Source: a virus. From it: a stretch of 34,331 nucleotides of DNA. Position numbers and translations under genes: made by a program. This document shows, piece by piece, positions 1,060 through 26,466 of this stretch (positions within the stretch are counted from its first letter, which is position 1; each line of letters starts with the position of its first letter). The notes under the pieces were generated by a model. That model was given only the letters and a program-made list of their open reading frames with translations. It made no database searches and was not told the origin of the DNA. The DNA lies in the IMG/VR virus record IMGVR_UViG_3300034010_001074, positions 1-34,331 of that record. One strand, 5' to 3'.

Positions 1060-1286
1060 GTGAAGCTGAAAGCATACTAAAATGTATCGTTTTTATTTAT
1101 TGTATCCGTCACACTATACGAAAGGACTTGAAAATTACAAAACCTGTTACAATTTTTTACATTTATTAACAATTATTTACGATCGTGTTTTATACATAGT
1201 GTAAAATATACAATAAGTGTAATTTTTACACACTTTGTATAGCTGGATATACATTTTAACTAATCCTTACATTTTAAATCACTATA

Positions 1287-1344
1287 TGTAATGAAGTAGT
1301 AATGCCTCAATCCCTTGAGGTGACTACATCCTTACAGCATTACA
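1287..1344. repeat. Interrupted palindrome / extended hairpin
   Basis: The core CCTCAA-TCCC-TTGAGG (1305-1320) is a perfect 6-bp stem with a 4-base loop. It extends by two G-T wobble pairs and then, past a 2-base AA bulge, by GTAGT (1296-1300) with ACTAC (1323-1327). An outer pair TGTAATG (1287-1293) with CATTACA (1338-1344) closes it. There is no T-run after it, so it is not a typical rho-independent terminator. It may be an operator, a cruciform or part of the attachment site. Confidence 0.6.
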
Positions 1345-1448
1345 CAAATTACCATATATATATAGACACGTAAGAAAAATATATATATGTATAGGTGTAT
1401 GTGTGTATGTACGTGCGTATGTGGGTGTATATTTCCATGTAAGGATGT
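1326..1448. repeat. 11-bp perfect inverted repeat, inner pair
   Basis: ACATCCTTACA at 1326-1336 recurs as its reverse complement TGTAAGGATGT at 1438-1448. The pair lies inside the 15-bp pair and flanks the GTRN tract. Together the two pairs give four TCCTTACA octamers, the left two in one orientation and the right two in the other, as arm-type recombinase sites often are. Confidence 0.8.
1397..1428. repeat. GTRN tetranucleotide tract
   Basis: Eight consecutive in-register tetranucleotides of form GT(A/G)N: GTAT GTGT GTAT GTAC GTGC GTAT GTGG GTGT. The tract is almost entirely alternating purine-pyrimidine and is preceded by an ATATATAT run. It sits between the arms of the inner inverted repeat. 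Such tracts can unwind or adopt left-handed DNA; function here is unknown. Confidence 0.75.
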
Positions 1449-1639
1449 TATTTTTACTTACTTATTGAAGTATTGCCGTTATTATTGAGTTACACACATT
1501 ACAACTATGAAAGTAGTAATGTAATGGTTTTGTAATAACTGATATACTTAATGAAGAATTACATTCCCTATTGAGTTTCAGTTTTTTAAAATGTAAGGAA
1601 TACTAACTTATTGAACTAACTTTATTTAACATAGTGGAT

Positions 1640-2061: not shown

Positions 2062-2508
2062 ATGACTACCCCAAAGAAAAGCACCAAAAAGGGCGAAACC
2101 AAAACGCCTGCTAAGAAAAAAACCGTCGTTCGCCGTGGAACGGATTGGGTTAGTATTCATCCGCTTTATATTCAAGGCATTTCACCTTCAAAGCTCGACC
2201 TTGAGTACGAATTACCCAGTGGGAGCGTGTCACGTCATGCGTATCAGGCTGGCTGGTACGAAGAAAAAAAGCTTTACCAGCTCGAACTTGCTAAGGCGTT
2301 GGCTCTTGAGCATTCCAAGGTTGTATCCGTTGCCAAGGGGCAAGCACTGGCTTTTGGCATTCAGGTTTTGAACAACTATGAAGCGTTTGATGTGAAGTTG
2401 GTTTGTGCTGTGTTTAGCAAGTTCATTGACCTTAAGGACGTGGCAGATACCGCCGAAACCTTTGGGATTGTGGGCTTGCCTGAACTTGACTTGGGGGACA
2501 CGCTATGA
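2062..2508 (+). CDS. Putative terminase small subunit
   Basis: A 148 aa protein immediately upstream of, and overlapping by four bases (ATGA), the large terminase gene, the usual place for TerS. It starts with a Lys/Thr/Pro-rich basic tail (residues 1-25). Next comes a region that could be a helix-turn-helix (HPLYIQGISPSKLDLEYELP), then helical Ala/Leu/Lys-rich sequence suited to oligomerisation. TerS would recognise phage DNA and load the packaging motor. No strong Shine-Dalgarno sequence is seen ahead of ATG 2062, and the upstream leader carries motif copy 1. The call rests mainly on position, size and predicted helical character, as TerS proteins diverge widely. Confidence 0.6.
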   Translation: MTTPKKSTKKGETKTPAKKKTVVRRGTDWVSIHPLYIQGISPSKLDLEYELPSGSVSRHAYQAGWYEEKKLYQLELAKALALEHSKVVSVAKGQALAFGIQVLNNYEAFDVKLVCAVFSKFIDLKDVADTAETFGIVGLPELDLGDTL

Positions 2509-3926
2509 GTTTTCAAGGCATCGTCCCCTATACCCAATTTTGGGACAAGCAAAAGCAATTCATTCAGCGTGATGCCGATGTTGACTTGGATATGTGCATC
2601 TATCAGGGTGGCTACGGCTCGGGCAAGACATTTATCGGCTCGTTGCTTGGTATTTTGCTTTCCAACAAGTACAAAGGCAAGACTGGACTCGTGGTAGCCG
2701 ATACCTTCACTTTGCTTGAAGAGACGACACTAAGGGCGTATGAGGATCACTTTGAAGCCTTTGGCTGGGAGTCAGGAATCCATTACATCAAGCGTGGGGG
2801 CAATGGCAAGGCTCGCATTTCATTCCCTCAATGGGATTCGCACATCTTGTTCATGGGTGGGCGTGATCCTGAACGGTTGAAGTCCTTGAACTTGGCATGG
2901 TGTCACATGGAAGAAGGCTCACAGCTTCCTGAAGCGACGTTTAACATGGTTTTGTCACGCCTTCGGGCAAAGGGCGTCGATTGTCACCGCTTGTTTGGCA
3001 CAACAAACCCTCAAGCCGTCAAGGGCTGGATCCATAAGCATTTTGTGTTGAATGGCGGTCGTAAAGAATTAACTGGTGAAGACGGTAAAGTTACCATCAT
3101 TAACAAACGCCGTATCATCGCCCCTACCAGTGATAATAAATCCTTAAATGAGAGCTATGTCATGTCCATGAAAGAAACCTTTGACGATGAGTATTTCCGC
3201 ATTAACGTGCTAGGTGAAGACGGCGATTATGCCAGTGGCTTAGTCTGCAAGACGTGGACAGAAGCCAACGTAAGCCCTACGTGTGAATACGACAAGAACG
3301 CCGATATTTTCTTGACCTGTGATTTTAACGTGGATCCGATGTGCTGGGGCATTGCTCATTACGTCAACGGCTCGTTTTGCTTCTTCGATGAAATCGCCAT
3401 TGAGAACACGACGACGCATCAAGCGTCTGAAGAGTTCGCCATGCGTTATAAGGGGCATCAAGGAGTGGTTATTGTCACTGGTGATGCGTCTGGTCAAAAC
3501 AGGGCGACAAAAGCACAGAATGTTGGCACGACGGATTACACGATCATCCTTAACACGTTGTCATCCTTTGGGTATCATCGTGTTTCAACCAATTTACCCA
3601 CAAGCAACGGTTCAATCATGGATCGTATTCAGGCATGGAACGCCGCCGTTTGCAATCGGGACGGTGTGCGTCGGGTTTTGGTGTCGCCAAAATGTAAGAA
3701 AATCATTTGGAACATGGAAAATCTTAAGTACATCAACGGGACAAGCGTTGTAGAAGAGCCTACGACGAATCAAATAGATAAAGACAAGGCGTTAAAGTTC
3801 AGCGGTCACATGTTTGATGCCGTGAGTTACTTGATTAACCGCTACATGCCGATTAAGCATGACCATTCGTTTCACAAAAAGCAACAATTGGTTTCAGTTC
3901 CGTATCGCACAGGAGGAGGTATCTAA
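2505..3926 (+). CDS. terL: Terminase large subunit (packaging ATPase/nuclease)
   Basis: Motor that cuts phage DNA and pumps it into the prohead. In 473 aa it shows the complete architecture. The ATPase domain has Walker A GGYGSGKT (35-42), a Walker B-type strand ending AWCHMEE (131-137, catalytic Glu at the end) and coupling motif GTTNP (165-169). The C-terminal RNase H-like nuclease has acidic residues D273 (CDFNVDP), D327 (GDASG) and D438 (MFDAVSYL). Its start overlaps the small-subunit gene, and its TAA stop overlaps the next ATG by one base (TAATG), implying translational coupling. Confidence 0.95.
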   Translation: MSFQGIVPYTQFWDKQKQFIQRDADVDLDMCIYQGGYGSGKTFIGSLLGILLSNKYKGKTGLVVADTFTLLEETTLRAYEDHFEAFGWESGIHYIKRGGNGKARISFPQWDSHILFMGGRDPERLKSLNLAWCHMEEGSQLPEATFNMVLSRLRAKGVDCHRLFGTTNPQAVKGWIHKHFVLNGGRKELTGEDGKVTIINKRRIIAPTSDNKSLNESYVMSMKETFDDEYFRINVLGEDGDYASGLVCKTWTEANVSPTCEYDKNADIFLTCDFNVDPMCWGIAHYVNGSFCFFDEIAIENTTTHQASEEFAMRYKGHQGVVIVTGDASGQNRATKAQNVGTTDYTIILNTLSSFGYHRVSTNLPTSNGSIMDRIQAWNAAVCNRDGVRRVLVSPKCKKIIWNMENLKYINGTSVVEEPTTNQIDKDKALKFSGHMFDAVSYLINRYMPIKHDHSFHKKQQLVSVPYRTGGGI

Positions 3927-25541: not shown

Positions 25542-25832
25542 CTAGCATCTTAAGTATTCATCAAAGCCTTTGCACGACATTTTCTTTTTCTTTGTGAGTT
25601 GAATCTTAAGACGCTTAATGTCTTTTGATAGACCGTCAATGTTTTCTTGAGTGACTTCCAATTTGTCAACCATAAGATACCCACGCTCAATGTCCCATGC
25701 ACGAGGTACTTCTACAAAATTACTCATCTTTTCCGTCGCCAGCACAGGGGCGTTGAGAACGTCGGCTATGGTACAAGCATCAAACGTTTTACCCCACAAG
25801 ACACGCGATCCCATCATTTCTTCGTTAGTCAC
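25542..25832 (-). CDS. Small accessory protein with C-terminal coiled coil
   Basis: A 96 aa protein with GTG start at 25832 behind AAAGGAGG nine bases upstream; it overlaps the end of the pentapeptide gene by eight bases. The second half (VTQENIDGLSKDIKRLKIQL, then KKKK) is a probable coiled coil with a basic patch. The first half carries no recognisable motif. Function unknown. Confidence 0.6.
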   Translation of the reverse strand: MTNEEMMGSRVLWGKTFDACTIADVLNAPVLATEKMSNFVEVPRAWDIERGYLMVDKLEVTQENIDGLSKDIKRLKIQLTKKKKMSCKGFDEYLRC

Positions 25833-26466
25833 TTTTGCAATCCTCCTTTACAGGATCAAACACACCCATGGAATCCAATATAGGTAGCCATTTATTTAAA
25901 TACTCAAGACCATCAGGAGCAAATGACGCTTTCTTTTTGTCACTAAACTCTAGCCAATCTTTTAATGGGTGTTGTTGACAACCAATAGCAAGCGTCGCAT
26001 TCGTCCAAGCAAATCGATAGGTATCCGTTTGCATAGATTTAATCTCTTTGCTGTTACCAACACACTCTCTCAAGTTAGCACCGCTCAAGTTAGCATCGAC
26101 CAAGTCGGCACCGCTCAAGTTAGCACGTCTCAAGTTAGCACCGCTCAAGTCGGCACCGCTCAAGTTAGCACGTCTAAAGTCGGCATCGCTCAAGTTGGCA
26201 TCGCTCAAGTTGGCATCGCTCAAGTTGGCACCGATCAAGTCGGCATCGCTCAAGTGGGCATCTCTCAAGTTAGCACGTCTCAAGTCAGCATCGACCAAGT
26301 CAGCATCGACCAAGTCAGCACCGCCTGTAACAAACTGCTTTCCTTGTGGAGGCTCTTCCCCCCTTACTTCTTCATCTTCATCTTCTGCATTCCACAGCTC
26401 CCAAGCTAGCCATTCCGTATGGGCTTTTAAGGCTTCTTGTAAGTTAAAATCTTTGTTAGTCATCAT
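25825..26466 (-). CDS. Pentapeptide-repeat protein
   Basis: A 213 aa protein. Residues about 48-133 comprise 17 tandem A(D/N)LXX pentapeptides (GADLV, DADLV, RANLR and so on), which fold as a right-handed square beta-helix. The C-terminal part (TYRFAWTNATLAIGCQQHPL, then EFSDKKKASF) resembles a module often attached to phage pentapeptide proteins. Known pentapeptide proteins include DNA mimics that block gyrase (Qnr, MfpA), but most are of unknown function. Among early accessory genes, a host-directed role such as protecting or inhibiting topoisomerases is possible but unproven. AAGGAAAGGA precedes tandem ATGs (26466, 26463). Confidence 0.85.
   Translation of the reverse strand: MMTNKDFNLQEALKAHTEWLAWELWNAEDEDEEVRGEEPPQGKQFVTGGADLVDADLVDADLRRANLRDAHLSDADLIGANLSDANLSDANLSDADFRRANLSGADLSGANLRRANLSGADLVDANLSGANLRECVGNSKEIKSMQTDTYRFAWTNATLAIGCQQHPLKDWLEFSDKKKASFAPDGLEYLNKWLPILDSMGVFDPVKEDCKSD
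26071..26325 (-). repeat. 17 tandem 15-bp units encoding pentapeptides
   Basis: Read on +, 255 bases divide into 17 contiguous 15-mers of form (C/A)AAGT(T/C/G)(A/G)GCA(C/T)C(G/T)(N)(N), several identical (CAAGTTGGCATCGCT twice, CAAGTTAGCACGTCT three times). Identity extends to synonymous positions, pointing to recent unit duplication or exchange. Confidence 0.9.

Follow-up and report, generated by a model that had tools for sequence, protein, structure and literature searches.

The response regulator RpaB of cyanobacteria is known to bind the HLR1 element (PMC9241938, PMC6331805), which has the consensus (G/T)TTACA(T/A)(T/A)NN(G/T)TTACA(T/A)(T/A) (PMC9241938). In cyanobacteria, RpaB represses when bound over the core promoter and activates when bound upstream, whilst stress dephosphorylates the regulator and releases it (PMC6331805). 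Sister lineages of cyanobacteria that do not photosynthesise have retained RpaA and RpaB, in a role described as unknown (PMC3787301). The genes rpaA, rpaB and nblS are recorded in Melainabacteria as lacking a known function, in passages on these genes that make no mention of an HLR1 regulon (PMC3787301, PMC4040986). No dedicated study of Vampirovibrionales prophages was found in the literature searched. Further points of comparison for the locus described here are the P4-type iteron origin, the SPP1-type packaging site and the attP of lambda-type tyrosine integrases.

The window, i.e. the whole stretch of DNA that was analysed (34,331 nucleotides), is the complete IMG/VR record IMGVR_UViG_3300034010_001074. 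Both of its ends fall on gene starts, position 1 being the start codon of the integrase gene (int). The longest non-coding gap of the phage (1060-1738; the next longest is 246 bp) contains a dense array of TTACA and TGTAA pentamers. This array sits in the phage's main non-coding control region, which separates int from the late (terminase/structural) operon. Our principal reading, to which we assign a probability of about 0.5, is that the control region is responsive to RpaB of the host and that the left end of the array (1146-1183) is a predicted RpaB site. The features of this part of the window are as follows.

1-1059, + strand: tyrosine integrase with an N-terminal Xis/MerR-like HTH (PF00589 E=1e-28; HTH_17 E=7e-5; excise E=8e-6)
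1060-1738: control region, a non-coding gap of 679 bp and 70% A+T between int and the late operon
1135-1596: 17 TTACA/TGTAA pentamers, counted in the sequence
1146-1163, + strand: exact HLR1 box GTTACAATTTTTTACATT, a 16/16 match and the sole exact one in the 34-kb window
1146-1183, + strand: in-phase half-sites, four at 10-bp intervals (TTACA 1147, TTACA 1157, TAACA 1167, TTACG 1177)
1264-1278, + strand: left arm of a 15-bp perfect inverted repeat, TCCTTACATTTTAAA, from sequence
1585-1599, - strand: right arm of the 15-bp inverted repeat, from sequence
1326-1336, + strand: left arm of a nested 11-bp inverted repeat, ACATCCTTACA, from sequence and pairing
1438-1448, - strand: right arm of the nested 11-bp inverted repeat, from sequence and pairing
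1395-1423: alternating purine-pyrimidine run of 29 nt, GT/AT-rich, the longest in the window, within the innermost inverted repeat
1640-1668, + strand: candidate sigma70 promoter TTGACA-17-TACGCT with TG before the -10, under the threshold of the automatic scan
1739-2014, + strand: small putative HTH protein of 91 aa, the first gene past the array
2062-2508, + strand: putative small terminase, from gene order (it precedes TerL) and an HTH-like start
2505-3926, + strand: large terminase (TerL), start of the late operon (PF04466 E=8e-18; phrog_2 E=8e-30)

A preliminary description of this DNA had reported 17 pentamers in about 465 bases, four octamers with the left pair opposite in orientation to the right pair, and nested perfect inverted repeats of 15 and 11 bp. 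These observations were borne out. A recount of the 465-bp stretch 1135-1599 gave 10 TTACA and 7 TGTAA pentamers; the octamer TCCTTACA occurs twice on the + strand (1264, 1329) and twice on the - strand, appearing there as TGTAAGGA (1438, 1592); and both inverted repeats are present. No other 465-bp stretch of the 34-kb window is as rich in pentamers as the array (16-17), the runner-up elsewhere having six. The same description had expected about two pentamers by chance, a value that agrees with mononucleotide shuffles (2.2) but is too low by dinucleotide shuffles, for which the mean was 4.6 (sd 2.0, maximum 12) and the observed 17 was reached in 0 of 2000. With correction for the choice of pentamer, an excess equal to that observed was seen for any pentamer in 1 of 1000 shuffles. 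Taken singly, the inverted repeats are less remarkable, and so is the octamer with its four copies (~4% of shuffles each), as a perfect inverted repeat of at least 15 bp was found in 40, and some octamer present four times in 42, of 1000 dinucleotide shuffles. All 17 pentamers together exhibited a best period of 10.1 bp (P = 0.005 versus random placement). Searches for homologues of the array in phages, plasmids and 386 genomes of the phylum returned only short AT-rich chance matches, as did a search of IMG/VR with the paired 15-mers; conservation therefore provides no footprint and cannot decide how the array is read. Comparisons with a DnaA box, NtcA sites and BlaI-type palindromes were dropped by eye because the pentamers lack a fixed palindromic spacing.

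The exact HLR1 box is extended by two degenerate repeats that remain in phase, such that the overlapping 18-mers score 15/16 and 14/16. Two sites scoring at least 15/16 were observed as compared to 0.03 expected, and an exact HLR1 was generated in 14 of 8000 dinucleotide shuffles of the gap. As HLR1 was picked for comparison after the TTACA sequence had been seen, the weight of this match rests on the independent results obtained for the host and for related phages. The locus resembles the cyanobacterial HLR1/RpaB regulon in its exact box, in the RpaB orthologue of the host and in the occurrence of the same boxes in host intergenic regions; it differs in being a prophage of a non-photosynthetic lineage, in that binding at the site is predicted, and in that the phage box consists of four in-phase repeats amid 17 pentamers and far from a gene start. 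The distance to the next gene start is ~575 bp, much further than in host promoters. Weak promoter-like hexamers (1166-1194) overlap the box, and the stronger candidate promoter (1640-1668) lies 480 bp off, ~40 bp past the last octamer, and points into the late operon. The HLR1 pattern does not extend to all 17 pentamers: only one exact pair among them has the 10-bp spacing, and the four octamers do not match HLR1, having C where G/T is required. The suggestion in the preliminary description of an operator array consequently holds in part, being favoured by the exact HLR1, the two in-phase repeats and the RpaB and boxes of the host, but covering about four repeats only. Most of the other pentamers and the nested repeats fall outside the HLR1 reading.

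An identical integrase (100%) was found in a Vampirovibrionales MAG on contig L002 (JAJTHC010000113.1), with a tRNA-Arg(CCG) gene ahead of int together with genes that we take, from their translations inspected by eye, to be murA, dnaN and alr. The opposite end of the window was located on a separate contig of the same MAG, where the phage continues 1.8 kb beyond and carries an HTH_3 repressor. The IMG/VR record is short by ~0.2 kb on the left and by 1.8 kb on the right, the repressor gene being included in the missing part. Three proteins of the host MAG contain an OmpR-type DNA-binding domain. One of these (L137 1489-2310, - strand) is an RpaB orthologue with a score of 327.2 bits on NF045944, for which the curated cut-off is 330, as compared to 217 for the next family; the two paralogues score 195-207 and do not stand out. 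Among the matches listed, host TTACA pairs on one strand peaked only at a 5-nt spacing, that of HLR1, with 20 pairs as compared to 4.9 on average for each of the other spacings. All 12 intergenic pairs with the 5-nt spacing fit the full consensus, in that the four constrained positions, which precede or separate the repeats, are occupied by G/T, A/T, A/T and G/T, whereas the pairs within genes mostly did not fit. Across 18 Vampirovibrionales genomes (G001-G018; examples L140-L219), the HLR1 pattern KTTACAWWNNKTTACA gave 155 matches versus 18 for the reversed pattern. The corresponding counts for G001 were 20 and 1; these counts, the spacing peak and the 12 intergenic pairs were taken together as use of the motif in promoters of the host's own genome. 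From these patterns, the host appears to use HLR1 boxes for its own genes. Around HLR1 sites in genomes of the host order, pentamers number 3.2 per 465 bp on average and 5 at most, and RpaB alone therefore does not call for 17 pentamers.

Exact HLR1 boxes were also detected in phages with related terminases, mostly in the control gaps that divide early from late genes. In 80 IMG/VR TerL-related loci (734 kb), seven exact HLR1 18-mers were found versus none for the reversed pattern (seven versus one for the 16-mer), and six of the seven boxes are intergenic. Exact boxes in long AT-rich control gaps were placed as follows.

L051:710
L054:2049 and 3126
L060:2562
L068:3385
L069:3385

The first gene of a rightward (terminase) operon follows the box at ~80 bp in L051 and L054; in L060 and L068/L069 the box lies 70-85 bp before a leftward operon, in a similar long AT-rich gap. 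Since L051/L054 and L068/L069 are near copies, there are about five independent sites. The enrichment is confined to exact boxes, with 15/16 matches not being enriched in these phages. A clade-specific TerL scan for the HLR1 footprint yielded only four loci. The array itself has no counterpart of comparable density near TerL in 53 loci, nor did any comparable pentamer array turn up when the gaps beside the terminase genes were examined in more than 40 TerL relatives. Of the TerL elements from the same order, the nearest (G004, G005) either lack the array or are truncated.

The gap precedes the late operon and contains candidate promoters. The simplest picture is one in which RpaB occupancy would convey host stress to the prophage. 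In a quiet lysogen, phosphorylated host RpaB would bind the HLR1 box and would block or tune transcription starting in the gap. A change in the stress or redox state of the host would release RpaB and alter transcription from the gap, and prophage activity would thereby be tied to host physiology. The remaining pentamers, including the TCCTTACA octamers and the nested repeats, may help RpaB or a phage partner. In this scheme we infer the binding of RpaB, the direction of its effect, the promoter that it controls and the role of the remaining pentamers. The comparison of genomes suggests that an RpaB-HLR1 circuit is alive in the non-photosynthetic Vampirovibrionales and that phages may plug into this circuit. 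Vampirovibrionales would then offer a concrete RpaB regulon that is unconnected with photosynthesis and open to testing, and their prophages a candidate host signal by which they could be controlled. A broader proposal, which is possible but doubtful, is that temperate phages of non-photosynthetic Cyanobacteriota (those of Vampirovibrionales and probably of gut relatives) have incorporated RpaB, as the redox/stress regulator of the host, into the gap between early and late genes, with the whole TTACA field of the present phage acting as a many-site RpaB platform through which the state of the host reaches the lysis-lysogeny decision.

The gap also has sequence in common with the cI/early switch of the phage. 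Ten 10-mers are common to the two regions as compared to a mean of 1.4, with 1 of 415 AT-matched controls having as many, and the words AAATATACAATAA, TAACTTATTGA and ATACAATAAATAA occur in both the gap (1060-1740) and the repressor/early switch (L008:2966-3085). Such sharing would also fit regulatory DNA that one phage regulator recognises in both places. The switch contains a leftward promoter near consensus (TTGACA-17-TATATT) and a TTGACAAC/GTTGTCAA palindrome. The protein encoded at 1739-2014, between the array and the terminase genes, had no family match, and its structure model had a pLDDT of 51, at which fold matches are meaningless. No relatives of the integrase, of this HTH protein or of the putative small terminase were found in IMG/VR.

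The nested repeats, the 29-nt run and a strong predicted fold on either strand could belong to a structured leader, to a packaging site or to an origin. In an origin, the TTACA repeats would serve, in both orientations, as iterons for an initiator encoded by the phage (the 859-aa Toprim primase-helicase is a candidate), and the AT-rich core of alternating purines and pyrimidines at 1349-1435 would be where the DNA melts. P4-type initiators read iterons, and the likeness to a P4-type origin extends to AT-richness, to short repeats that occur in either orientation and to a phage-encoded primase-helicase. An origin would also suit the placement of the array in the longest non-coding gap (70% AT), with the 29-nt alternating run held within nested inverted sites, and the restriction of the motif to one place in the phage. 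The cumulative GC skew reaches its minimum near the left end, but mostly tracks gene direction. Differences from the P4 type are that the phage repeats are irregularly spaced and lack supporting relatives, and that no initiator is known to bind them. No replication initiator gene adjoins the array. The search for primase relatives gave a single, uninformative one (L136, 32%), which is without such an array in the stretch covered. An origin would, in addition, leave the exact HLR1 box unexplained. We consider this reading unlikely.

Packaging was considered from the position of the array just before the genes for the putative small terminase and the large terminase, the latter a Terminase_3 protein. 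In a pac or cos site, small-terminase sites would flank the cut as in pacL/pacR of SPP1, and the oppositely oriented paired sites do flank a central segment. The likeness to SPP1-type pac lies in this arrangement of sites around a centre, beside terminase genes with a Terminase_3 TerL; it is one of layout alone, with no sequence likeness known. The TerL relatives are without comparable arrays, no repeat array having been found before the terminase in more than 40 of them, and the putative small terminase (2062-2508) gave no family match that would confirm its assignment. A packaging site would again leave the HLR1 box unexplained, and this reading is judged improbable.

The pentamers might instead act in RNA, as complementary arms of a structured leader (1267/1592, 1287/1490, 1332/1438, 1499/1520 and 1135/1218). 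The + strand has a predicted fold with a z of about -4.5 to -5.2, in which TTACA-TGTAA pairing involves 10 of the 17 pentamers. The opposite strand, however, folds nearly as well, some phage coding stretches score equally low, and any array with two orientations would fold likewise. Homologues for covariation are lacking, and an Rfam scan of 1000-2100 with E up to 1 found nothing near a gathering score, the only hits being sub-threshold microRNA models. A leader RNA is accordingly given a low probability.

The proposal of the preliminary description that the array, which adjoins int, forms Int/Xis arm sites of attP for an integrase with an Xis-like N-terminal HTH was rejected as highly improbable, because int separates the att core, which lies 5' of this gene, from the array at a distance of 1286 bp, and because the flanks of the core contain no TTACA or TGTAA and have an inverted pair of their own. 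The related integrase of a second Vampirovibrionales genome (G013) likewise has its tRNA att site 5' of int. The search for attL and attR in the lysogen, which the same description had advised, placed the crossover in tRNA-Arg, away from the array. The core is the 43-bp 3' part of tRNA-Arg(CCG), CCTCCGAAGCC...GGCACA, with attL at L002:6226-6268 and attR at L008:4297-4339, the second copy being without the full tRNA. The occurrence of this 43-bp repeat on both contigs defines attL and attR and places attP upstream of int, 151 bp before the start codon and outside the window. A 10-bp inverted pair, TGACACACAA/TTGTGTGTCA, flanks the core at distances of ~43 and 57 bp (L008:4245-4254 and 94-85 bp before window position 1), with GACGCA words nearby; the pair and these words are likely candidates for arm-type sites of the phage integrase. 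The phage resembles lambda-type systems in having an attP with its own core and inverted flank repeats ahead of int; this attP lies apart from the array. The related suggestion that the Xis-like N-terminus of the integrase reads the array retains its weak HTH_17 and excisionase-family matches, but nothing connects the integrase to the array, and no TTACA array was found downstream of the related integrases in G013 and G017.

The HTH_17/excisionase-like domain of the integrase replaces the usual arm-binding domain, and the related integrases of G013 and G017 align across the same N-terminal stretch. In G013, the att site is in a tRNA-Ala gene whose end recurs 38 kb on, the interval (G013:C1:746270-784676) being a 38-kb prophage-like element in tRNA-Ala. 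Elsewhere in the phage, a 17-bp word, AAAATAACAACCTCTCA, occurs in both the late-operon leader (1692-1708) and an early-operon hairpin (L008:2679-2695), and the gene at 25825-26466 (- strand) is built of tandem 15-bp units and resembles that of a pentapeptide-repeat protein.
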